DNA of 64,000 nt from Pseudomonadota bacterium (GTDB lineage Bacteria > Desulfobacterota > Desulfobacteria > Desulfobacterales > RPRI01): the NCBI GenBank assembly GCA_018817425.1, contig JAHITX010000079.1, forward strand, positions 62,001 through 126,000, given 5' to 3'. Position numbers and translations under genes: made by a program. Within the stretch, counting starts at the first letter, position 1; every line of letters starts with the position of its first letter. Of this stretch, positions 3,237-28,518 are shown in pieces. The notes under the pieces are model-generated. The model was not told the DNA's origin and did no database searches. It saw only the letters and a program-made list of their open reading frames with translations.

Positions 3237-4130
3237 CTAGTCATTGGCTTCATTTCGTAAAAGGATAGAAATAATTTCGGCAATATATTCATCGGCTTTT
3301 TCTGAAGGAAATCTGCATGCACCTGCGCCGCTATGGCCGCCGCCGCCAAATTTTTTAAGCATTTTTCCGGCATTTACTTTGCAAGTCGTATTAAATATAT
3401 TATGTCCGACGCTTACTGCCATTTTATCTTTTTTACTATCATTATATCGTATTTTAACGCTTACGTTAGCTTCGGGAAATAGAGAATAGACAAGAAAGCG
3501 GTTTCCCTCAGGGGCATCGTCAAATGAACGCAGATCGGTTATAGCCACATGTTTTTTAAGTACAGTATTTTGAAGCAATACAGTTTTATAAGCTTTATTG
3601 TTTTCAATTACTTTTTCACACTTTTTCTTTATATCCGCATCGTTCATAACAGTATTTATATCAAAATCTTTTAACAGATGAACCAGGCTGTTCCAGTATG
3701 ATTCATCCGATAACTCACGGTTTGAGATTGTCATGGAAAGAAGGATATAAGGATAATTTTCCGGATGTAAAACCTCATCAATTGATAATTGAGCAGAATC
3801 GATTTTATCAGTTTCTCTTACAAGTTCTGTAAAATCTTTTTTGAATTTACCTTCATAATATGAAAAAACCACTCCTGCCGCAGAAGGAGCTATAGCAAAT
3901 GAACCTGAAAACGGCTTTTCAATCGTATTTGAATAATGATGATCAAACCACATGGAGCATCGATTGTCATAAGGAAGATTAGCCATTATATCCCCTTCCT
4001 TTATTTCTATCATACCATGCTGAATTTCGTGTGGCTCAACCCATTTAACAGGTTTAGTAATTCTCTCTTTTTCAAACAGAAGTACTGCGCATACTATCCC
4101 GTCAAAATCAGGCCGTGTTACAATTCTCAT
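3237..4130 (-). CDS. DHH/DHHA1 family phosphoesterase
   Basis: The N-terminal DHH domain shows RPDFDGIVCAVLL and WFDHH (manganese ligands), and the C-terminus has the DHHA1 signature KKFGGGGHSGAGACRF. These are features of exopolyphosphatase / NrnA-like enzymes that hydrolyse phosphoester or phosphoanhydride bonds; the substrate cannot be read from sequence. The frame is open 11 codons further upstream, to an ATG at 4161-4163, but the ATG at 4128-4130 has a good CGGAG ribosome-binding site six bases upstream, so I use it (297 residues). Confidence 0.85.
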   Translation of the reverse strand: MRIVTRPDFDGIVCAVLLFEKERITKPVKWVEPHEIQHGMIEIKEGDIMANLPYDNRCSMWFDHHYSNTIEKPFSGSFAIAPSAAGVVFSYYEGKFKKDFTELVRETDKIDSAQLSIDEVLHPENYPYILLSMTISNRELSDESYWNSLVHLLKDFDINTVMNDADIKKKCEKVIENNKAYKTVLLQNTVLKKHVAITDLRSFDDAPEGNRFLVYSLFPEANVSVKIRYNDSKKDKMAVSVGHNIFNTTCKVNAGKMLKKFGGGGHSGAGACRFPSEKADEYIAEIISILLRNEAND

Positions 4131-4233
4131 ATTATCTCCGGAATCAGTCAAATTAGCGTTCATAACATAAAAAAACCATTATGCTTAATGTATGATACCT
4201 ATATAAAAAGTCAACATATGACTTTAAACAAAA

Positions 4234-4291: not shown

Positions 4292-5263
4292 TTATTTTGA
4301 ATCGTTAATTTTTTCAGTAAGTTCCGGAATAATATCAGCTAAATCTTCAACAATTCCAATGTCTGCGACTTGAAAGATCGGAGCGTTCGGATTCTTATTG
4401 ATGGCTACCATAAAAGGTGAGCCCTTGATTCCGCCAAGATGCTGAAAAGATCCGCTTATACCTAATGCCATGTAAACTTTGGGTTTAACGGTTTTGCCGG
4501 AAGTACCTACCTGGCGGCCCTTTTCAAGCCACTTGGCATCAATGATTGGACGTGAGCATGAAACATCGCCGCCCATGGCTTTTGCAAGATCATTAGCCAT
4601 TTCAATATTTTCTTCTTCTCCGATTCCGCGCCCGATAGAAACAAGAATTTCGGATTTTGTAATATCAACGTCTCCGACTTCGGCTTCGATAACTTCTACA
4701 AAACGCCTTTTTTGTGCCGGGATCTCGCCTGCATCTGCTGTCTTATCAACAACCGATCCGCCTTCTGCACCACCTTCAACCGGAGCAAATGAACCCGGAC
4801 GAATTGTAATAACCGCTCCGCCTGAAATATCGCAAAGCACATGTGTGCTGACCTGACCGCTGAATTCCTGACGAACGGCTTTGAGCTTTCCACCATCATT
4901 GCCTTCAAAATCAATTGCATCAGGAAGATAAGCTCCATCCAGTTTTATGGATAGGCCAGGGGATAAATCCATACCAAAATGGTCATGCGCAACCATTACG
5001 ATGTTTCCTTTGGGAATAACCTTGGCAAGTAAAGCGCGAATTACTTCCGAATTGGGATATGCGAGCGCATCATTTTCTATTTTCCAAACTTCTTTATATG
5101 AAGCTGTCAAGCTATTACATACGGAGTCTATATTACTGCCCACCACAATTGCAGTCAAAGAAGCAGAAGGATCAATCTTTTTGGCTGCCGCAACCATTTC
5201 TCCTGCCGTGTCATCAACAGCTCCGTCTTTATGTGATATATATGCAAAAATCTGAAGGGCCAT
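4292..5263 (-). CDS. etfA: Electron transfer flavoprotein alpha subunit
   Basis: A 323-residue EtfA. The C-terminal FAD domain contains VGTSGKTVKPKVYMALGISG, then the QHLGGIKGS segment and NKNPNAPIFQVADIGIVEDL, all canonical for alpha subunits. It forms the FAD/AMP-containing heterodimer with EtfB that takes electrons from acyl-CoA dehydrogenases. The ATG overlaps the etfB stop codon (TAATG) and is preceded by AAAGGAGGT, so translation is coupled. It is the last gene of the feS oxidoreductase-etfB-etfA operon. Confidence 0.97.
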   Translation of the reverse strand: MALQIFAYISHKDGAVDDTAGEMVAAAKKIDPSASLTAIVVGSNIDSVCNSLTASYKEVWKIENDALAYPNSEVIRALLAKVIPKGNIVMVAHDHFGMDLSPGLSIKLDGAYLPDAIDFEGNDGGKLKAVRQEFSGQVSTHVLCDISGGAVITIRPGSFAPVEGGAEGGSVVDKTADAGEIPAQKRRFVEVIEAEVGDVDITKSEILVSIGRGIGEEENIEMANDLAKAMGGDVSCSRPIIDAKWLEKGRQVGTSGKTVKPKVYMALGISGSFQHLGGIKGSPFMVAINKNPNAPIFQVADIGIVEDLADIIPELTEKINDSK

Positions 5264-6054
5264 TATTTTATACCTCCTTTGGATTTCAATAGTTCAATCA
5301 GTTTATCAACCTTTTCATCCATGCTTCCCTCAAGCATTTCAGCACCTTCTCCAAGAACAGGCGTGAAGTAATCAACAAGGGAAACCTTGGCTGCCGCTGA
5401 GCCTACCGAATCCTGACTTAATCCAAGGTCTGATGCACCTTTAACCGGGATTTCGACAGACGCAACTTTTCTGATTCCACGGATACCGACATAGCGGGGT
5501 TCATTAATTCCGGTCTGAATCGAAAGAACACATGGAAGATCCATTTCGCTTATCTCCTGTTGCCCACCTGCGATTTCTCTTCCTATCTTGATTTTTTTAT
5601 CGTCGGATGCTTCTATAAGGTTAACAAGAGACGCAAAGGGCAGATCAAGCATTGCGGCAAGCATACCGCCTACCTGACCGGCTCCATCGTCAGCCTGGGC
5701 TCCTGTGAGTATAAGGTCGTATTTACCTTTTTCTATTTCAGCTTTTAATATTGATGCAATGCCTTTCCCGTCAGATCCTTCAAAAGCGGCATCTGAGAGA
5801 AGTATTCCATTATCGGCGCCCATAGCCATTTCTCTTCTCAAGACTTCTTCGGAATCGGAATCGCCAACCGAAACAACCGTAACGCTTCCTCCAACATTGT
5901 CTTTAATTTGAATTGCCTCTTCAACGGCATAGTTATCCCATTCATTTACGGAATACACAAGATCGTCCCGTTCAATATCCGAACCGGAATCGTTTACGCT
6001 GATTTCATTTTCAGCGGTATCTGGAACTCTTTTAATACAAACTAAAATATCCAT
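5263..6054 (-). CDS. etfB: Electron transfer flavoprotein beta subunit
   Basis: A 263-residue EtfB starting MDILVCIKRVPDT, with the nucleotide-binding segments VVSVGDSDSEEVLRREMAMGAD and LILTGAQADDGAGQVGGMLA followed by the DLPCVLSIQTGINEPRY motif. It has a strong GGAGG ribosome-binding site. It pairs with EtfA and, with the upstream membrane Fe-S protein, should pass electrons from acyl-CoA oxidation to the quinone pool. Confidence 0.97.
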   Translation of the reverse strand: MDILVCIKRVPDTAENEISVNDSGSDIERDDLVYSVNEWDNYAVEEAIQIKDNVGGSVTVVSVGDSDSEEVLRREMAMGADNGILLSDAAFEGSDGKGIASILKAEIEKGKYDLILTGAQADDGAGQVGGMLAAMLDLPFASLVNLIEASDDKKIKIGREIAGGQQEISEMDLPCVLSIQTGINEPRYVGIRGIRKVASVEIPVKGASDLGLSQDSVGSAAAKVSLVDYFTPVLGEGAEMLEGSMDEKVDKLIELLKSKGGIK

Positions 6055-6125: not shown

Positions 6126-8189
6126 TTAAGCTATGTGTTTTTCAATCAGTTCCACAAGATCAATTGCTTCCATTTTACCTTCCATTCCGCAAACCTTGAT
6201 CGCATCTTCCATATTTACCAGGCAGAAAGGACAGGCGGTAATAATAACATCTGCTCCTGCTTGTTTTGCCATTTCAACTCTTAATACACTCATTCTCTGT
6301 TCTTCTTCAGGTTCATAAAAAAGCATCAAACCGCCGCCGCCGCAACAAAAAGACCGGTCTCTGCACTTTTCCATATCTACTCTTTTGATTCCAGGAATAG
6401 AGTCTATAGCTTCACGTGGGTCATCATATACATCATTATGCCTTCCAAGGTAACACGGATCATGGTAAGTATATACCTTGCTTGTATCTTCGACACTCTT
6501 TAGTTTTATATCGCCCGCTTTTACGCTTTTAACTATTGTTTGGCTAATATGTTCAACAGGCACAATGCCATCGTATTCATTTTTTAAGGCGTTATAAGCA
6601 TGCGGATCGGCAGTAACTATATTTTTAACTTCAGAATTTTTTATTTCTTCAATATTGTTGGCCTTTAAATCCTGAAAAAGCATTTCTTCTCCGAAACGTC
6701 TTACTTCATTACCACTGTCTTTTTCCAAAGATCCGAGTATGCCAAAATCAATTCCGGCTGCCGTAAGTATTTTTGATGTTGCTCTGGCTATATCCTGCAT
6801 TCTGTCATCATATGATGTTATACTGTCTACAAAATAAAGTGTATCGGCGGCATCCCCCTTTTCAATCAATTTGACCTTTATACCACTTTCCTTTTCAAGA
6901 GACTTGGTCCAGTCAGCACGTTTTTTCTCCATTTTTCCCCATGGATTGCCGCGTTTTTCAAGGGCACTCAATGGTTTTTGAATAGATTGCGGAACCATGC
7001 CTTCGTCAACCATTCCACGTCTTAGATCAACAATCTTGTCGATATACTCAATCATCAGAGGACATTCCTGCTCACAGGCACCGCATGTTGTGCATGACCA
7101 TATTTCATCTTCACTGTAAATATTCCCGATAAGGGGCTCGTCAGTATTTTGCGCTTCTCCTAAAATCGGATATTTTTTAAACATATATGCACGAGCCTTT
7201 ATGGAAATAAATCTTGGGGAAAGCGGGCGTCCTACTGCATTTGCAGGACACTGATCTGAGCACCTTCCGCAATCTGCACATGAATAAAAATCAAGCATAT
7301 GTTTCCATGTGAAATCTTCAAATTTTTTCACTCCGAAAGATTCGAGTTCCTCAAGCTTATCATCGGCAACTCCCCACTTAACTGGTTTAATAGCCCCTTT
7401 TTTAAATTTCATTGAAAAAAGATTGGGAAGAGATGTCATAATATGAAAAAACCTGTTGGATGGAATCATGCAGAAAAAAAGAAAAAACGCAAGCATGTGG
7501 ATATAATAAGAGCTAAGATAAATTGATTGTAATTTTTCTATCGGAGTTTGGCTTAAAATATTTGAAGCAACCCAAACTCCCGTTCCGGGAATTAATATCT
7601 TAGCAAATTCCATTCCTTCCTGAAAATGGGCTGAGGCCAGGCTTGCTTCAAAAAACATATCTGCTGCCATTAAAACAGCAATCAAAAAGAGCATGAGCAA
7701 GGTTTCATTTGATTTATCCTCACCAAAGCGAGCCGGAACCTGGTAGCGTTTCGGCAAATAAATTCTGCGTAGCATTGCAAAAACACAAACACAAAAGACC
7801 AAAGTTGCGGAAACATCTTTGAGCATTCCATACCCTACGCCGACAATGCCCCCCAATCCAGGGGAAGCAAAGGTATCTGAGAACCCGATCAGAATAAGTA
7901 TAATCCATCTTAATGCAATTATGATAAATCCGGTCAAAAAAGTTATATGAATAACGCTTGATAAGAAATATCGCGGCATTCTATGATGAGGAACCTCAAA
8001 TGCGTTTATCAGCCGCTGCTTTACATTATCCTTACGAGAATCGAAAGCGGCTTTTTTAAGCGGAACAAGCCGCTTGTTTACTATAAACGCAAGAACTCCC
8101 AAACCGACAAGTACAATCAAAACAGAAAGAACAACCGCCGGTATACCGTGAATCGAAGCATTGGCCGGGGAAGTTAATATTGCATCCAT
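6126..8189 (-). CDS. Membrane Fe-S oxidoreductase, likely ETF:menaquinone oxidoreductase (EMO type)
   Basis: A 687-residue protein. The N-terminal third has several membrane helices (VLSVLIVLVGLGVLAFIV, the region after HHRMPRYFLSSVIHITFL, and more), resembling NarI/DsrM-type haem b subunits. Two ferredoxin-like clusters follow (CADCGRCSDQCP and CTTCGACEQECP), then an HdrD-like part with a clear CCG motif (CCGGGGLM) and CPFC. The arrangement matches the membrane ETF:menaquinone oxidoreductase of anaerobic beta-oxidisers. Being 72 bp upstream of etfB supports this electron route. The ribosome-binding site is AAGGGAG. A TetR-type palindrome lies 86 bp upstream of the start. Confidence 0.88.
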   Translation of the reverse strand: MDAILTSPANASIHGIPAVVLSVLIVLVGLGVLAFIVNKRLVPLKKAAFDSRKDNVKQRLINAFEVPHHRMPRYFLSSVIHITFLTGFIIIALRWIILILIGFSDTFASPGLGGIVGVGYGMLKDVSATLVFCVCVFAMLRRIYLPKRYQVPARFGEDKSNETLLMLFLIAVLMAADMFFEASLASAHFQEGMEFAKILIPGTGVWVASNILSQTPIEKLQSIYLSSYYIHMLAFFLFFCMIPSNRFFHIMTSLPNLFSMKFKKGAIKPVKWGVADDKLEELESFGVKKFEDFTWKHMLDFYSCADCGRCSDQCPANAVGRPLSPRFISIKARAYMFKKYPILGEAQNTDEPLIGNIYSEDEIWSCTTCGACEQECPLMIEYIDKIVDLRRGMVDEGMVPQSIQKPLSALEKRGNPWGKMEKKRADWTKSLEKESGIKVKLIEKGDAADTLYFVDSITSYDDRMQDIARATSKILTAAGIDFGILGSLEKDSGNEVRRFGEEMLFQDLKANNIEEIKNSEVKNIVTADPHAYNALKNEYDGIVPVEHISQTIVKSVKAGDIKLKSVEDTSKVYTYHDPCYLGRHNDVYDDPREAIDSIPGIKRVDMEKCRDRSFCCGGGGLMLFYEPEEEQRMSVLRVEMAKQAGADVIITACPFCLVNMEDAIKVCGMEGKMEAIDLVELIEKHIA

Positions 8190-8274: not shown

Positions 8275-8294
8275 ATGAATGAACGCTCATTCAT
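8275..8294. promoter_or_regulatory. TetR-type operator upstream of the feS-etfBA operon
   Basis: ATGAATGAACGCTCATTCAT is a near-perfect palindrome with ATGAATGA / TCATTCAT arms. The same arms and spacing occur at 11124-11143 in front of the tetR gene, which makes it a strong operator candidate for that regulator. The rest of 8190-8483 holds no gene I can see. Confidence 0.8.
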
Positions 8295-8483
8295 ATAGCA
8301 AACCGGTTCAAAATCTGTCAAGAAAAAAGAAACTGCTTATATTCCTTAAAAACCCGTGCCGGATGTATTTGTGATACTTTTAATCAAACTAATAGACTCC
8401 AGTGCTTTTTGTAATTGATTAATCACTTATAAGCATCTGTTAATTAAAGCTATAGATCAATATAGCAACAACGCAACCAAACA

Positions 8484-8515
8484 AAAAAAGCGGGCCCGTC
8501 AAAAGCCCGCTTTTT
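8484..8515 (-). terminator. Rho-independent terminator after the acyl-CoA dehydrogenase gene
   Basis: On the minus strand AAAAAGCGGGC, a short loop, then GCCCGCTTTTTTT gives a GC-rich stem with a T tract. It separates the acd transcript from the downstream feS-etf operon. Confidence 0.85.
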
Positions 8516-8582
8516 ATCTTAATTGATTATTTCGTAAAAAGTACCCACACCGTTTATACGACAAAGTATAAAACCAAACTTA

Positions 8583-10430
8583 TCATCCGCCAAATGAAGC
8601 TTCAGGTATATCAACAACGGAACTGCTTAACCCGAAGATTGCATCCATCTTGCCTGATGTTACGGGAAGTAATGCATTGATAAAGAACTCGGCGCTCTTG
8701 ATCTGACCTTCATAAAAAGCTGCGTTTTTATCTTTTCCTATTTTTGCACGTCTATCCTCTCCGGTACCTGCTATTTTATCAAGTTTTGGAGCAGCGATAA
8801 CAGCTCTCCAGAGCAGCATCCATGCCATAACAACATCTCCTGTCACTTCCATGAAAGGATGTGCAAAAGCAAACGCTGAAAGCACTTTGGGAGATCTCGC
8901 ACTAGCTCCGATATGCTTGGTAACTTCCCCAAGTTTATTAAGAGATTTCTCAAGGTTCTCAGCAATGCCTTCTATACCTTGTATTCCTTTTGCACTTGCA
9001 ATGGTTTTTAAAATTTCACCTACAAGATCTTTAACGGGTTTACCTTTATTCATGCCAAGCTTACGCCCGAGAAGATCCATAGCCTGAATACCGTTTGTAC
9101 CTTCATATATCATAGTGATTCTGCAATCTCTCATATATTGCTCAACCGGATATTCCGTTACATATCCATAGCCCCCATAAATCTGAATGGCATGGCTGCA
9201 TATTTCAAAGGCTTTGTCTGTAATATAACCTTTGACTATCGGAGTAAGAAGATCGGCAAGTCCCTGATACTTTGATTTTTCTTCATCACTTTCAGTAATA
9301 CTAACCATATCAAAACAATAAGAAATAAAATAAACAAGACTTCTCATACCTTCTACATATGATTTCATAATCATAAGCTGTCTGCGAACATCAGGATGCT
9401 GAATTATAGGAACACCGGGTGCGCTTTCATCCATAGCTTTAAGCAGGTGTTTGCCCTGAATCCGCTGTTTTGCATAATCCAATGCATAGAGATAAGATGG
9501 AGACGCACAGGTAAGGCCCTGAAGACCGACTTGCAGACGCGCATCATTCATCATAAGAAACATGACTTTAATGCCTTTGTTTTCTCCTCCAAGAAGAAGC
9601 CCCCTGCATTTGCCCTTTCCCCCTAAAGCGAGCGAGCATGTTGCATTACCATGAAGCCCCATTTTTTCTTCAATCCCTGTACAAACGACATCGTTTGTTT
9701 CTCCAAGAGTTCCATCATCATTAACCCAGATTTTTGGAACCAGAAACAATGAAATACCGGCAGTTCCTGCAGGAGCTCCCTCAATTCTTGCAAGAACAGG
9801 ATGAATTATATTTTCGGTAAGATTCTGTTCCCCACCGGAAATAAATATCTTGTTGCCTGTTATTGAATATGTTCCATCTTCATTCTTTTTTGCACTGGTA
9901 GTAAGGGCTCCGACATCAGTACCTGCTTCAGCTTCAGTAAGAAGCATGGTCCCGGACCATTCACCGGAGTACATCTTTTTTAAAAACATCTTTATCTGCT
10001 GATCTGTTCCAAATTCCTCAACAAGCTTTCCTGCTCCATGGCACAGTCCGCCGTACATTGAAAACGAATGGTTGGCTGCAACAAGGTAATCAGTTGCTGC
10101 TGCTGCAACCGTATGGGGCATTCCCTGACCGCCATATTCCGGGTCGTCCGACATGGCAATCCACTCACCTTCTTTGATTAAATTATAAATTTTATGATAA
10201 CTTTCCGGAACTTTTACCATGCCGTTTTCGAACTTGCATCCTTCCTTATCTCCCAATGGACGGGTAGGAAGTATTTCTTTTATAGCCAGATTGCGTGCTT
10301 CGGACACGATCAAATCTATCGTTTTCTTATTAAACTCTGCATACTTTTCGTGTTTGCTGAGGTCTGCTATCTGAAATTGCTCATGAAGCACAAAATCCAC
10401 ATCCCTTCTGTCAGCTAATAACTGTGCCAT
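8583..10430 (-). CDS. Acyl-CoA dehydrogenase (long form with C-terminal extension)
   Basis: A 615-residue flavoprotein. It contains TMLLTEAEAGTDVGAL (FAD/substrate region), GNKIFISGGEQN, and the segment CRITMIYEGTNGIQAMDLLGR whose Glu in YEGTNG is the expected catalytic base. It is longer than the usual 380-residue family members because of a C-terminal domain of about 130 residues, as in the AcdA-like 600-residue subgroup. It should oxidise an acyl-CoA to the enoyl-CoA and reduce EtfAB; chain length is not readable. AAGGAGAG precedes the start, and tetR lies 37 bp upstream on the same strand. Confidence 0.93.
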   Translation of the reverse strand: MAQLLADRRDVDFVLHEQFQIADLSKHEKYAEFNKKTIDLIVSEARNLAIKEILPTRPLGDKEGCKFENGMVKVPESYHKIYNLIKEGEWIAMSDDPEYGGQGMPHTVAAAATDYLVAANHSFSMYGGLCHGAGKLVEEFGTDQQIKMFLKKMYSGEWSGTMLLTEAEAGTDVGALTTSAKKNEDGTYSITGNKIFISGGEQNLTENIIHPVLARIEGAPAGTAGISLFLVPKIWVNDDGTLGETNDVVCTGIEEKMGLHGNATCSLALGGKGKCRGLLLGGENKGIKVMFLMMNDARLQVGLQGLTCASPSYLYALDYAKQRIQGKHLLKAMDESAPGVPIIQHPDVRRQLMIMKSYVEGMRSLVYFISYCFDMVSITESDEEKSKYQGLADLLTPIVKGYITDKAFEICSHAIQIYGGYGYVTEYPVEQYMRDCRITMIYEGTNGIQAMDLLGRKLGMNKGKPVKDLVGEILKTIASAKGIQGIEGIAENLEKSLNKLGEVTKHIGASARSPKVLSAFAFAHPFMEVTGDVVMAWMLLWRAVIAAPKLDKIAGTGEDRRAKIGKDKNAAFYEGQIKSAEFFINALLPVTSGKMDAIFGLSSSVVDIPEASFGG

Positions 10431-10467
10431 AATTAATCTCTCCTTAGAATCAATTTATATGTTATTT

Positions 10468-11103
10468 TTATGAGACTTGCTGTTCCCTTAATTCTTCCGA
10501 ATTTACTATTCCTCTTATAAACAGATCAACAAGCGGATCAGCCATTGATGTAAGATCATATTTGCTATCTGAATGCAACCATGTATTAATTACCTCATCA
10601 ACACCGCCAAGTATATACCGTTTAACCAGACCTACATAAAGATCTTTTCTTATTACACCTTCATTTTGCCCTGTTTCAATTATTTCCGAAACAATATCAA
10701 GATACAGCTTGGACATTTCTTTTATCTGATTTTCGACCAGCCGGTTGTTCTGATGCGTTTCCGCCTGATATAAAACCGCCATATACCTGTCATTCTGAAA
10801 TTCTTCAAGTTGACACCGGATAAAGTTTTTAAGTTTATCAAAACTGTTGCCGGCCTTGCTCACTTCCTCCCGTAATTTCCCGAATACCTGCTTTGTCTTA
10901 TAAGTAAAAAACTGGACAAGGATATCGTCCTTGTTTTTAAAATACAAATATATAGTGCCATCCGCAACTCCGGCTTCCTTAGCAATCTGGGATATTGTTG
11001 ATTGATGAAATCCCCGTTCTGCAAATATTTTGACAGCAGAAACAAGTATGCGATGATATTTATCGTTTTCTTTGGCTCTGATATTTATAGTAAACCTTCT
11101 CAA
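10468..11103 (-). CDS. TetR family regulator of fatty-acid oxidation (FadR-like)
   Basis: A 211-residue TetR protein whose HTH reads TISQIAKEAGVADGTIYLYF followed by KNKDDIL. The C-terminal ligand domain is of the size seen in acyl-CoA-responsive TetR regulators. The longest frame begins at TTG (11101-11103) and no ATG or clear ribosome-binding site precedes the HTH, so the start is uncertain. It is followed directly by the acyl-CoA dehydrogenase gene. Palindromes upstream of its own start and of the etf operon suggest autoregulation and control of both units, with acyl-CoA as the probable inducer (inference). Confidence 0.9.
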   Translation of the reverse strand: MRRFTINIRAKENDKYHRILVSAVKIFAERGFHQSTISQIAKEAGVADGTIYLYFKNKDDILVQFFTYKTKQVFGKLREEVSKAGNSFDKLKNFIRCQLEEFQNDRYMAVLYQAETHQNNRLVENQIKEMSKLYLDIVSEIIETGQNEGVIRKDLYVGLVKRYILGGVDEVINTWLHSDSKYDLTSMADPLVDLFIRGIVNSEELREQQVS

Positions 11104-11123
11104 GAACGTTTTAGGATAATATT

Positions 11124-11143
11124 ATGAATGAATACTCATTCAT
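11124..11143. promoter_or_regulatory. TetR-type operator upstream of tetR-acd
   Basis: ATGAATGAATACTCATTCAT has the same arms and spacing as 8275-8294. It lies 21 bp upstream of the tetR start, a position suited to autorepression. Confidence 0.8.
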
Positions 11144-11267
11144 TAACAAATACGGTTTTCCCCTGTCAAGTTGTTTTAGAAAAACCTGTTATTTTAAATT
11201 ATTGCATTTCTCAAAATAACATTTTTGAAGCAATAAGATTATAGGGTATGCACAATAGATGATAAAT

Positions 11268-11409
11268 GAGCCAGTTTCAAAACGCCCCATTTTGGCCGAT
11301 CTCTGCGTTGGGTTCAAATTTCAATCCTCGAAATACTAAATGTATTCCTGTGGTTGAAATTTTCTCCCGCCTTGAGCTTGACCAAACTGAAACGTTTTGA
11401 AAGTGGCTC
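11268..11409. repeat. Dispersed palindromic repeat, copy B (complete)
   Basis: A 142-bp element with terminal inverted repeats: GAGCCAGTTTCAAAACG at the left and the complement of GAGCCACTTTCAAAACG at the right. The interior holds TTGAAATTT / AAATTTCAA-type inner arms. It is the best-preserved copy of the family also found at 2131, 24913, 27252 and 41020. It carries no reading frame. Confidence 0.85.
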
Positions 11410-11452
11410 AAATGATTGTTAACAAAAACGATTGATTTGCGAAGGAATTACT

Positions 11453-12520: not shown

Positions 12521-12530
12521 ACAAAATAAT

Positions 12531-12608
12531 CTCGTTAGGGGAGCCATTAATGGCTGAGAATCGACTCTTAACTACCTGATCAGGGTAATGCCTGCGAAGG
12601 GAAACGAG
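12531..12608 (+). ncRNA. TPP riboswitch (thi box)
   Basis: The stretch has the conserved TPP aptamer elements in order: P1 5' strand CTCGTTAGGGGAGCC, GGCTGAGAA, then ACCTGATCAGGGTAATGCC, GCGAAGGGAA and the closing AACGAG that pairs with CTCGTT. It lies about 190 bp upstream of thiC on the same strand, between a good promoter and the gene. It should lower thiC expression when thiamine pyrophosphate is abundant. I could not identify a simple terminator or anti-RBS expression platform because a REP-like insertion occupies the leader. Confidence 0.95.
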
Positions 12609-12688
12609 TTTTTGGTTTTTATACTTCTGGAATCCACCGTTTCTCATGATTACATTTTTGGGTATCAACCCCTTTTGGCAGCCTAAGT

Positions 12689-12795: not shown

Positions 12796-14094
12796 ATGAC
12801 ACAACTTGAAGATGCTTTAAAAGGCAAAATAACCGATGCCATGAAACAGGCAGCAGAATATGAAGGAATAAGCGGTGAAGAAATTCGCGCGGGAGTTGCA
12901 AAAGGAGAAATAGTAATCCCCAAAAACATCAACCACAATTTTATGGCGCGTGGAGTTGGAAAAGGACTTAAAACCAAGATAAACGCCAATATAGGAACAT
13001 CCCCCAGCCATTTTGATCTTGATGAAGAGCTAAAAAAGCTTGATGTGGCGGTTGAGGCCGGTGCTGATGCCGTTATGGATCTATCAACCGGCGGAGATAT
13101 CTCCTTGATTTTGAGAAAAATTCTTGAGCACTCAAAAGTAATGATCGGAACCGTTCCAATTTATAAATCCGTTTCAAAAATAATTTCTGAAGGCAAAAGC
13201 AGTATTGAACTGACTGCTGATGAAATCTTTGATGAAATTGAAAATCAGGCAAAAACAGGAGTGGATTTTGTTACGGTTCATTGCGGCATCACCCGCCACA
13301 CTGTTGATGTGCTCAAAAATTCAAACAGGTTAATGGGTATAGTATCCCGGGGCGGTAGCCTTATGACCGAATGGATACTAAAAAATGAGAAAGAAAACCC
13401 GCTTTATGAATATTACGATCGTCTCCTCGATATAACCCGAAAATACGATGTCACCCTTTCTTTAGGTGATGGCCTGCGCCCCGGAACAATTTGTGATGCC
13501 GAAGACAGAGCCCAGATCTCGGAACTTGTGGTTCTTGGAGAACTCGCACAAAAAGCAAGAAACGCCGGGGTGCAGGTAATGATTGAAGGCCCAGGTCATG
13601 TACCCCTTAGCCGGATTGCTTCCGATATGAAATTACAGAAACGCCTATGCGGCAATGCCCCATACTATGTTCTGGGCCCTCTGCCTACTGATATAGCACC
13701 CGGTTATGACCATATAGTGGCTGCTATAGGAGGAGCAATTGCTGCAGCAAGCGGAGCCGATTTTTTGTGTTATGTAACACCTGCCGAACATTTAAGCCTG
13801 CCTACAATTGACGATGTACGTGAAGGAGTAATTGCCTCCAAAATTGCGGCACATATCGGAGACATAGAAAAAGGTGTAAAAGGAGCTTGGGATCGCAACA
13901 GGAAGATGTCGGAAGCCCGCAAACGGTTTGACTGGAAGACAATGTTTGAACTGGCGATAGATCCTGTTAAGGCATGCAGGATACGAAACAGCACTGAAGA
14001 CAGGGACAGGGATGTATGTACAATGTGCGGCGATATGTGCGCCTTGAAAACTTATGAACGCGCCATGACAAATTCATCTTCCGATAAAAAATGA
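12796..14094 (+). CDS. thiC: Phosphomethylpyrimidine synthase
   Basis: A 432-residue ThiC of the short anaerobe type. It contains INANIGTSPSHFD, MDLSTGGD, SRGGSLM, the zinc-site region GPGHVPL, and a C-terminal cysteine motif CTMCGDMC for the 4Fe-4S/SAM cluster. It converts aminoimidazole ribotide to HMP phosphate for thiamine synthesis by radical chemistry. A ThiC paralogue, BzaF, makes hydroxybenzimidazole for cobamides, but the TPP riboswitch upstream argues for thiamine. The ribosome-binding site is weak (AAGAAG). From 14095 to 14160 there is only a short convergent spacer. Confidence 0.95.
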   Translation: MTQLEDALKGKITDAMKQAAEYEGISGEEIRAGVAKGEIVIPKNINHNFMARGVGKGLKTKINANIGTSPSHFDLDEELKKLDVAVEAGADAVMDLSTGGDISLILRKILEHSKVMIGTVPIYKSVSKIISEGKSSIELTADEIFDEIENQAKTGVDFVTVHCGITRHTVDVLKNSNRLMGIVSRGGSLMTEWILKNEKENPLYEYYDRLLDITRKYDVTLSLGDGLRPGTICDAEDRAQISELVVLGELAQKARNAGVQVMIEGPGHVPLSRIASDMKLQKRLCGNAPYYVLGPLPTDIAPGYDHIVAAIGGAIAAASGADFLCYVTPAEHLSLPTIDDVREGVIASKIAAHIGDIEKGVKGAWDRNRKMSEARKRFDWKTMFELAIDPVKACRIRNSTEDRDRDVCTMCGDMCALKTYERAMTNSSSDKK

Positions 14095-27366: not shown

Positions 27367-28518
27367 CTACAGCTCGAATTCTTCAATATCATCGTATGGT
27401 TTTATTCTTCTTCCAAGAATCGCAATAATTTTTCCTGCAATAAAACCTGTAACAATTGCTACAAGAATAGTAATACCAATGCCTGTTATCTGACTGCCTT
27501 TGTTTATACCATTGACAACAAAAATAGCTGCTATGCCACCAAGAAGTCCGGGCATACCGTGTAAGTTCATGACACCACAGGTATCAATGCCTTTAAGTAA
27601 GTTTTCGATTTTTTTCTGTAGTACTGCAAAACCAAATGTTGATAGGGCACCCGCTAGTATACCTACTATAAAAGCAGCTGGGAAACTGGCTAAATCACAG
27701 GTTGAACCAATAGCTACACCGCCTGCCAAAGCAGCATTGGCAATATCTGCGGCTGAGACTTTGCCCCGTATGGAAATCGAAGCAAAATAAGTGGCAATTG
27801 TAGCACCTGAAAGGGCTAATATTACATTGATTGCAGTGTGGGGCACAAGTTCAGGAGGCACAAGAGCTGCACAAAAACTTGGCCAGAATAACCAAAGGAT
27901 CATACTACCAAGCAAGGAAAACCTATCGCTTGTTGAGTCTGATTCAATAGGTAAGTCAATTTCATTTTTTGAGGTCATGGTCATTATCACCCCCAGTCCG
28001 AAGATTGCACCGAAGGCATGAATAACAATAGATCCTCCGGTATCAACAAATGTTCCTGAAGAAATCAGCCCCAAACCATTATCAAGGAGAACCCATTCAT
28101 TAAAGGCATAGCAGGGTATAAAAAGAAGACCGAGCAAAATGTACTGACTCATTTTAAGCCTGCCGAGAGGAGCTCCTGCACAAATAAGAAGGCTGGCTGC
28201 AGCAAATTCCGCAAGGATCAGACTGTCTATTTCCGAACCCGATCCACCCAGAATGCCTAAATTGTCTTTAAGTATATAAAGAGGAAGCGCAATGCTCACC
28301 AAAAGATATGTAGCTGTTACAGCAGAACGTCCATATTTTTTTACGAACACCATTAGAAAACCAAAACCTGCTAATAGCATTGCCATTATATGGATTGCAC
28401 GATTGTATTTTTGCACATCTACAACATGTTCTAACTCTGCGGCATAACCAATACCTGCAAAAAAGAAAATGATTACTAATGTTAATAATAATTTTAGAAA
28501 CGTGTGAGTCTTGTTCAT
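27367..28518 (-). CDS. Rh-type ammonium transporter
   Basis: A 383-residue membrane protein with an N-terminal signal-like helix (LLLTLVIIFFFAGIGYA) and about eleven further helices. FVDTGGSIVIHAFGAIFGLGV and CGVMNLHGMPGLLGG carry the twin channel histidines and follow the Rh50/Rhesus version of the family more than classical AmtB. It would conduct NH3/NH4+ (or possibly CO2). No glnK/PII gene accompanies it. The nearest nitrogen genes are the nif cluster about 12 kb away. Bacterial Rh proteins are uncommon, so the subclass should be tested by phylogeny. Confidence 0.85.
   Translation of the reverse strand: MNKTHTFLKLLLTLVIIFFFAGIGYAAELEHVVDVQKYNRAIHIMAMLLAGFGFLMVFVKKYGRSAVTATYLLVSIALPLYILKDNLGILGGSGSEIDSLILAEFAAASLLICAGAPLGRLKMSQYILLGLLFIPCYAFNEWVLLDNGLGLISSGTFVDTGGSIVIHAFGAIFGLGVIMTMTSKNEIDLPIESDSTSDRFSLLGSMILWLFWPSFCAALVPPELVPHTAINVILALSGATIATYFASISIRGKVSAADIANAALAGGVAIGSTCDLASFPAAFIVGILAGALSTFGFAVLQKKIENLLKGIDTCGVMNLHGMPGLLGGIAAIFVVNGINKGSQITGIGITILVAIVTGFIAGKIIAILGRRIKPYDDIEEFEL

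Follow-up and report, generated by a model that had tools for sequence, protein, structure and literature searches.

A 64,000-nucleotide stretch of a Desulfobacterales genome (assembly GCA_018817425.1, contig JAHITX010000079.1, positions 62,001 to 126,000; hereafter the window, in whose own coordinates all positions are given) carries two exact copies of a palindrome that are very probably the operators of a Bacillus-type FadR. Through these sites, as read from the sequence, an acyl-CoA dehydrogenase, the electron-transfer flavoprotein (ETF) EtfAB and a membrane oxidoreductase of the EtfD/FadF type would be held under a repression that acyl-CoA relieves. What was established by computation comprises the two sites and their conservation, their position over predicted promoters, the protein family to which the regulator belongs, the tendency of site and regulator to occur together, and a matching arrangement in two records from the Bacillus group. 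By its domains and closest structural matches the regulator is a homologue of the Bacillus-type FadR (YsiA), and what appears to be the new part of the system is the apparent non-canonical start of its gene. Under the proposed regulon, the passage of beta-oxidation electrons from acyl-CoA dehydrogenase through EtfAB and EtfD/FadF to the quinone pool would be placed under one control switch in Desulfobacterales.

Two palindromes and a FadR-type regulator

The palindrome, ATGAATGA-N4-TCATTCAT, was found in two exact copies in the 64-kb window: the putative operator O1 at 11124 to 11143 (ATGAATGAATACTCATTCAT), before the regulator gene tetR (here fadR) and the acyl-CoA dehydrogenase gene acd; and the putative operator O2 at 8275 to 8294 (ATGAATGAACGCTCATTCAT), before the fadF-etfB-etfA operon. 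The sites themselves were assigned no strand, and both stand before minus-strand genes, O2 lying 85 bp upstream of the ATG (8189) of the iron-sulfur (FeS) oxidoreductase gene and O1 lying 20 bp upstream of the TTG (11103) at which the open reading frame (ORF) finder begins tetR. When up to three mismatches were allowed, one additional match was detected in the window, at 28081 with three mismatches; because 8 of 100 shuffled windows contained at least three matches of this quality, only the exact pair was regarded as meaningful. A preliminary description of this DNA had placed the palindrome before tetR-acd and feS-etfBA and nowhere else in the window, and this is borne out.

The same description had proposed a genome scan with the 20-bp motif, which would count against a regulon if the motif occurred at random. 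In the genome to which the window belongs (5,123,197 bases in 147 contigs), the 20-mer was present in two exact copies, with no site at one mismatch and three sites at two mismatches. Markov models of order 0 to 3 trained on the window predict 0.0045 to 0.0085 exact 20-mers per genome, and the probability of two or more is about 1e-5 to 4e-5. The 18-bp core was likewise found in two exact copies, with none at one mismatch and 26 at two mismatches. These 26 sites were considered as further operators and rejected: 20 lie within ORFs of at least 80 amino acids and six between ORFs, and no beta-oxidation gene was recognised beside them when position and N-terminal letters were judged by eye, the domain library not being used. 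With up to three mismatches the core gave 324 sites compared with 139 for the reversed control, a count that was set aside since the reversed control differs in dinucleotide make-up.

The regulator encoded behind O1 (fadR, 10468 to 11088, minus strand) carries both domains of the FadR/YsiA type, a PF00440 DNA-binding domain (61.3 bits, cut-off 24) and a YsiA-like C-terminal domain, PF08359 (94.6 bits, cut-off 21). Its best PDB matches were 1vi0 (E 1.6e-42) and 3whb (E 8.2e-42), structures that we take to be FadR of Bacillus subtilis; the name given to 3whb is Fatty acid metabolism regulator protein. Further similar TetR/AcrR chains were 5gp9 and 5gpa, presumably FadR of Bacillus halodurans. 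Identity to the 1vi0 chain was 75 of 192 residues overall (39%), with 26 of 36 identical in the DNA-binding segment (72%) and 42 of 138 in the remainder. The earlier proposal of a TetR regulator for a fatty-acid regulon is therefore upheld by both the domain and the PDB matches, with the type now specified as YsiA/FadR.

Conservation of the sites in relatives

Relatives were taken as the best 80 of 383 loci from a protein search of the genome collection, which are the closest ones and not a random draw; most of them are titled Desulfobacterales, Desulfobacteraceae or Deltaproteobacteria. In 77 of these 80 the exact core TGAATGA-N4-TCATTCA was found within the 420 bp before fadR, as a counterpart of O1. 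In locus L105 the core has one mismatch, and in L068 an exact copy lies farther away, about 570 bp from the gene on its upstream side; for L110 no upstream operator within one mismatch was found. The 14 fixed letters of the core are invariant by selection. The flanking bases were unselected, and they were found to be conserved as well, with A preceding the core in 69 of 77 and T following it in 74 of 77; the 20-mer proposed at the outset is therefore the likely extent of the operator. A site at the regulator's own promoter was seen in the window, in 77 of the 80 relatives and in the B. subtilis and Paenibacillus records described below. The idea that tetR is an unrelated passenger was rejected, as acd follows tetR in 76 of 80 loci. 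As a separate observation, 13 of the 80 loci have two operators upstream of fadR, the second with at most one mismatch (L072-L074, L078, L080, L081, L085, L090, L095, L103, L115, L117, and L126), spaced 84 to 86 bp in seven loci and 161 to 180 bp in six.

A start could be assigned to fadF in 47 loci. If fadF lies more than 700 bp from acd, or acd was not found, a site precedes fadF in 32 of 32 loci (30 exact and two with one mismatch), compared with only three of 15 loci where fadF lies within 700 bp after acd. Such a pattern would be expected if separate transcription units each required an operator of their own. In the window fadF is 394 bp from acd and thus belongs to the close class, yet it has its own site, with a terminator-like hairpin (8485 to 8515, minus strand; a 13-pair stem followed by a T run) between the two units; the scan that detected this hairpin found five terminator-like sites compared with 2.7 expected.

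Both sites lie over predicted promoters. Hexamers of the -35 type, TTGACA, were read from the sequence on the minus strand at 11164 to 11169 for fadR and at 8316 to 8321 for fadF, and the -10-like elements, TAATGA/TTAATG at 11140-11146 and TATATG at 8292-8297, overlap O1 and O2, respectively. A perfect TTGACA stands 15 to 28 nt before the core at 66 of the 77 sites of fadR, compared with 2 of 212 shifted control positions, and at 21 of the 32 sites of fadF, compared with 0 of 96; within one mismatch it is found in 75 of 77 and 32 of 32. On this evidence the -10 element probably covers the first bases of the operator, with transcription predicted to start inside it.

The co-occurrence of site and regulator was examined in 59 genomes, the window's own included, in which 84 exact cores were found in 37 genomes and the reversed control gave none. 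This control, the Markov expectation and the conservation in relatives refute an origin of the palindromes by chance or as part of a repeat element, to which we assign a negligible likelihood. Such an origin could be suspected as a repeat with at least 40 copies lies nearby (about 11267-11410); however, neither site falls within this repeat, beyond TTGACA the sequences around the two copies are unlike each other, 0.0045 to 0.0085 copies are expected, and the motif is conserved over many genera. Orthologues of fadR, picked by hand with a best E of 1.7e-34 or lower, were present in 43 of the 59 genomes (partial in G045 and interrupted in G009). The exact site was detected in 36 of the 43 genomes with an orthologue compared with one of the 16 without (Fisher P 6e-8, with kinship ignored). 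The sole site-bearing genome without an orthologue, G026, is 85% complete and has three sites, before FadN, FadF and ligase genes; its fadR may therefore just be missing from the assembly.

Another TetR protein, such as a paralogue in the same genome responding to branched-chain or aromatic acyl-CoA, could in principle own these sites, the adjacent tetR being coincidental. TetR operators can resemble each other, and this genome holds six matches to the window FadR at E<=0.001 and three matches to PF08359. We nonetheless judge this very unlikely: of these, only the window protein has a strong YsiA-like domain (95.6 bits compared with 30.7 and 21.6), the site stands before the regulator's own gene in 77 of 80 loci, and 15 of the 16 genomes without an orthologue lack the exact site although all 59 contain matches at E<=0.001.

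Exact sites away from the fadR locus were also collected, giving 30 stretches (L162-L191) among the matches listed in the 59 genomes. Twenty-eight of these 30 precede beta-oxidation genes, with 22 before FadN-like genes (3-hydroxyacyl-CoA dehydrogenase with an enoyl-CoA hydratase domain; a thiolase gene is next in 16 of the 22), five before fadF and one before a long-chain acyl-CoA ligase gene. Because 22 of the 30 precede FadN-like genes, fadNA seems to belong to the regulon in relatives. The sites thus mark acd and fadF-etfBA in the window, and fadN-fadA and ligase genes in relatives.

A further alternative concerns the acyl-CoA. The regulator might sense short-chain, branched or aromatic acyl-CoA, and the regulon might then serve another acid, as the C-terminal part is identical to B. 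subtilis FadR at only 42 of 138 positions and the dehydrogenase is closer to FadE5 kin than to Bacillus FadE (119.9 bits compared with a 600-bit cut-off). This is unlikely in our estimate, given that the relatives' regulon includes FadN-thiolase genes and, once, a long-chain acyl-CoA ligase, and that the cluster of L194 contains a Bacillus-type FadE above the cut-off (805.1 bits).

Several observations weigh against assigning the sites to a Bacillus-type FadR. (i) With NF053878, the NCBIfam equivalog for Bacillus FadR, the window protein reaches 192.5 bits, below the cut-off of 200; it is therefore termed FadR-type and not assigned to that equivalog. (ii) A simple promoter scan of the window listed neither the fadR nor the fadF promoter. 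(iii) Seven of the 43 genomes with an orthologue have no exact site (G009, G025, G034, G043, G047, G052, and G055). Near fadR, G009, G047 and G055 have a site with one mismatch and G025 one with two; G052 and G043 have only three-mismatch candidates, that of G043 about 290 bp away, and no operator was recognised near fadR in G034. (iv) The link is looser across the phylum, where exact sites occur in eight of 13 genomes with a match of E<=1e-40 compared with 19 of 86 without; among the matches lacking an exact site, G062, G075, G113 and G148 have a one-mismatch site just upstream of fadR, and G094 has no site within one mismatch there. (v) Among the matches listed, two of the 30 distant sites precede no recognised beta-oxidation gene, that of L183 standing before a 905-amino-acid frame without a Pfam match and that of L191 between two frames whose ends face each other, one of them encoding a RACo-type protein. 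(vi) The genome's own fadN, on contig C138 and 78% identical to the query, has no operator: its -35/-10 region is present and the palindrome absent.

A degenerate FadR site at this fadN was considered and discarded, no site with fewer than four mismatches occurring in the surrounding 5,415 bases. Seven genus members have a match that spans most of fadN: G000, G006 and G009 retain the -35/-10 region without the palindrome, and the other four have the palindrome. The incomplete fadN that lies at the end of a contig in G002 (L166) likewise has it. The regulon, whose content is lineage-specific, seems to have shrunk in the lineage of the window. In G009 (L230), a frame change interrupts fadR, whose operator carries one mismatch, and the fadN operator is absent; decay or an assembly error could be the cause.

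Taken together, the membership of tetR, acyl-CoA dehydrogenase, EtfAB and the FeS oxidoreductase in one regulon, as first proposed, is supported, since the motif tracks the regulator gene and precedes the same genes in relatives. The companion expectation that the motif would be found near other beta-oxidation genes holds in relatives (28 of the 30 distant sites) and fails in the genome itself, which has only the two sites and none at fadN.

Gene products, proposed mechanism and the start of fadR

All genes of the two units lie on the minus strand. The product of acd (8583 to 10430) is an acyl-CoA dehydrogenase of 615 amino acids with PF12806, PF00441, PF02770 and PF02771, and it matches the PDB entries 6ijc (E 4.5e-134), 8pns (1.6e-126) and FadE5 6kse (7.7e-97); we take it to be of the FadE5/DmdC-like size class. 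Behind O2, fadF (6126 to 8189) encodes a 687-amino-acid FadF/EtfD-like membrane FeS oxidoreductase, predicted to act as an ETF:quinone oxidoreductase. This protein has the 4Fe-4S and CCG domains and the similarity to EtfD that characterise the EtfD/FadF class, its match to PDB 9ojn (Iron-sulfur-binding reductase) having an E of 2.7e-88. It is followed by etfB (5263 to 6054; PF01012, 144.2 bits) and etfA (4292 to 5263; PF00766 and PF01012). The operon may end with a gene for a 308-amino-acid protein (3237 to 4163) with a weak DHHA1-like match (PF02272, 21.1 bits, below the cut-off of 25.9), which also stands after etfA in L053, L131, L194 and L230.

In the mechanism that we propose, a FadR dimer would bind each TGAATGA-N4-TCATTCA site. 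As the sites overlap the -10 region and the likely transcription start, FadR on O1 and O2 would block RNA polymerase at its own promoter (fadR-acd) and at that of fadF-etfB-etfA. Accumulating long-chain acyl-CoA, the ligand suggested by the family, would bind FadR and release it from the DNA, and the acyl-CoA dehydrogenase, EtfAB and the membrane FeS protein would then be induced. Electrons would pass from the dehydrogenase to EtfAB, to the FeS protein and on to the quinone pool, presumably menaquinone. Binding, repression, the acyl-CoA ligand and the quinone acceptor are inferred. The apparent translation of fadR from AUC or AUU in most of the relatives (AUA here) would likely add a second layer by keeping the level of repressor low.

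This second layer is suggested by the many fadR orthologues in which the expected beginning of the protein lacks any ATG, GTG or TTG codon. Starts were assigned in 81 genes (the 80 relatives and the window) by a rule that takes the 6-mer most similar to AGGAGG and a codon 4 to 8 nt after it. By this rule, 71 of the 81 fadR genes have a Shine-Dalgarno sequence followed by AUC (46), AUU (23) or AUA (two, including the window), hereafter AUH; three of the 71 (L054, L058, and L060) are ambiguous, as a GTG immediately precedes their ATC. Nine other loci do not fit the rule, and in L116 it gives TTG; all ten have an in-frame ATG, GTG or TTG. A canonical codon with a Shine-Dalgarno sequence of at least five of six letters 4 to 11 nt before it was present in only two of the 81 genes. 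No canonical codon occurs between the upstream in-frame stop and residue 15 in 24 of the 81; thus, no in-frame AUG, GUG or UUG could start an intact FadR there, and these 24 loci combine a properly spaced Shine-Dalgarno sequence with the lack of any usable canonical codon. Likewise, in 24 of the 71 there is none from the stop to the AUH codon or for at least 13 codons downstream, a distance that in the window reaches the beginning of the DNA-binding domain.

The codon pattern, in which the third position is the most variable, appears a few codons after the AUH codon; upstream of it the pattern was not seen, and only the Shine-Dalgarno sequence is conserved. The neighbouring genes, chosen as controls because their window copies start with ATG, do so in every case counted at these loci (acd 76 of 76, fadF 44 of 44, etfB 31 of 31, and etfA 20 of 20). 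When the trait was placed on a tree built from 100 fadR proteins, it required seven changes compared with 23 for shuffled labels, the tree being rough, with long branches that meet and unsettled bootstrap values; among the rows beyond the 81 genes, the AUH label of L256 and L253 is doubtful on account of an in-frame ATG nearby. An in-frame ATG, GTG or TTG ahead of residue 15 was present in all 11 rows that do not belong to the order.

In the window, the Shine-Dalgarno sequence AGAAGG (11095 to 11100, minus strand) is followed after 6 nt by ATA (11086 to 11088, minus strand), at which position most relatives have ATC or ATT. The TTG at 11101-11103 chosen by the ORF finder is open in frame; because no Shine-Dalgarno sequence precedes it and the nearest relative, L053, has CAA at this place, fadR probably starts at the ATA at 11088 instead. 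For Desulfobacterales, the order of the window according to record titles, we consider it likely that fadR is mostly translated from a conserved non-canonical AUC or AUU (AUA here) behind a strong Shine-Dalgarno sequence. The switch would then be set by two layers, autorepression and a start-codon-limited translation sensitive to initiation factor 3, of which the latter would limit the amount of FadR and might couple the switch to growth state. If true, this would be a widespread repressor gene with a non-canonical start, one whose beginning would be misplaced by gene callers restricted to ATG, GTG and TTG.

A parallel is provided by ccpN, a repressor gene of Staphylococcus aureus for which the available text of PMC13009471 gives an AUA start behind a strong Shine-Dalgarno sequence, with about 10-30% of the expression from AUG depending on the medium, and a non-canonical start conserved in B. 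subtilis. Both are metabolic repressor genes with a strong Shine-Dalgarno sequence and a conserved non-canonical start; however, ccpN encodes another repressor, in another phylum and with another codon, where fadR has mostly AUC or AUU. In Listeria, a non-canonical start is reported to be fixed in six of 2265 conserved genes (PMC13068326). Grouped with ccpN as a known gene of this kind is infC; in the window's own genome infC (L257) seemingly starts with ATA after GGAGG, with a GTG open in frame before it. Among the top-ranked papers on non-canonical starts, none was found that deals with fadR or Desulfobacterales.

Other features of the window were recorded on their own account. Between fadR and a GGDEF gene lies a palindromic repeat of about 143 bp (about 11267-11410), of which at least 40 copies, its own included, share 96-100% identity, several of them at contig ends (40 of 294 candidates were scored). 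A thiamine pyrophosphate (TPP) riboswitch (12527-12619, 66.8 bits) stands upstream of an ORF at 12796-14094 that we take, from its sequence, to be thiC. At 344-1896, a Fic-domain protein adjoins an HSDR_N-domain protein.

Comparison with known systems

Regulators of fatty-acid degradation in Proteobacteria were surveyed in 2016, and the available excerpts of that survey name FadR of the GntR family, FadP and PsrA (PMC5343134). These are likewise transcription factors of fatty-acid degradation, FadP being of the TetR type, yet they belong to other lineages, and the FadR of Enterobacteriales is a member of another protein family; the same excerpts contain no mention of a Bacillus-type FadR in deltaproteobacteria (PMC5343134). 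No description of a Bacillus-type FadR regulon in Desulfobacterota was found among top-ranked titles and abstract openings, with subscription journals mostly uncovered, and no paper on a TGAATGA operator with FadR was found as judged by title or abstract opening.

For the electron-transfer step, the nearest counterpart is the mycobacterial EtfD, which, according to PMC13083937, links ETF to menaquinone and has FadF as its named Bacillus homologue. A similar electron-transfer role is proposed for an FeS oxidoreductase of Syntrophomonas in the excerpts of PMC5101538. The FeS protein of the window resembles this class through its match to 9ojn (E 2.7e-88) and differs in length, with 687 amino acids compared with the 1042 of 9ojn. 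We assume that 9ojn is the mycobacterial EtfD.

The closest relationship is to the FadR regulon of B. subtilis. One record of B. subtilis, which was deposited as a plasmid, has the exact core TGAATGAATAGTCATTCA, starting 49 bp ahead of the fadR match, with etfBA next in line; in a Paenibacillus record, an exact core lies between divergent FeS-fadN-fadA-acd and fadR-etfB-etfA units. We take TGAATGA-N4-TCATTCA to be the published consensus of B. subtilis FadR. According to a review (PMC4525379), FadR of B. subtilis represses five operons, including lcfA-fadR-fadB-etfB-etfA and fadF-acdA-rpoE, and is inhibited by C14-C20 acyl-CoA. The window differs from this system in that (i) the set of five operons is not matched, exact sites occurring in this genome only as the two operators of fadR-acd and fadF-etfBA; (ii) the dehydrogenase is not of the Bacillus FadE type; (iii) fadF and etfBA stand in one gene run; and (iv) the fadR frame of the B. 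subtilis record begins with TTG, where most relatives here have AUC, AUU or AUA. The likeness lies in a TetR repressor with a YsiA-like domain, in an exact operator core before fadR, and in the presence of etfBA and fadF (and, in relatives, of fadN-fadA and an acyl-CoA ligase gene) beside such sites, as far as the B. subtilis operons are covered by that source. Because the Bacillus-group records share the core together with fadR and etfBA, and the FadR operons of B. subtilis include etfBA and fadF, the window by its sequence holds a known kind of regulon, that of Bacillus FadR, in another phylum, with an operator that appears to have been kept nearly letter for letter across phyla.

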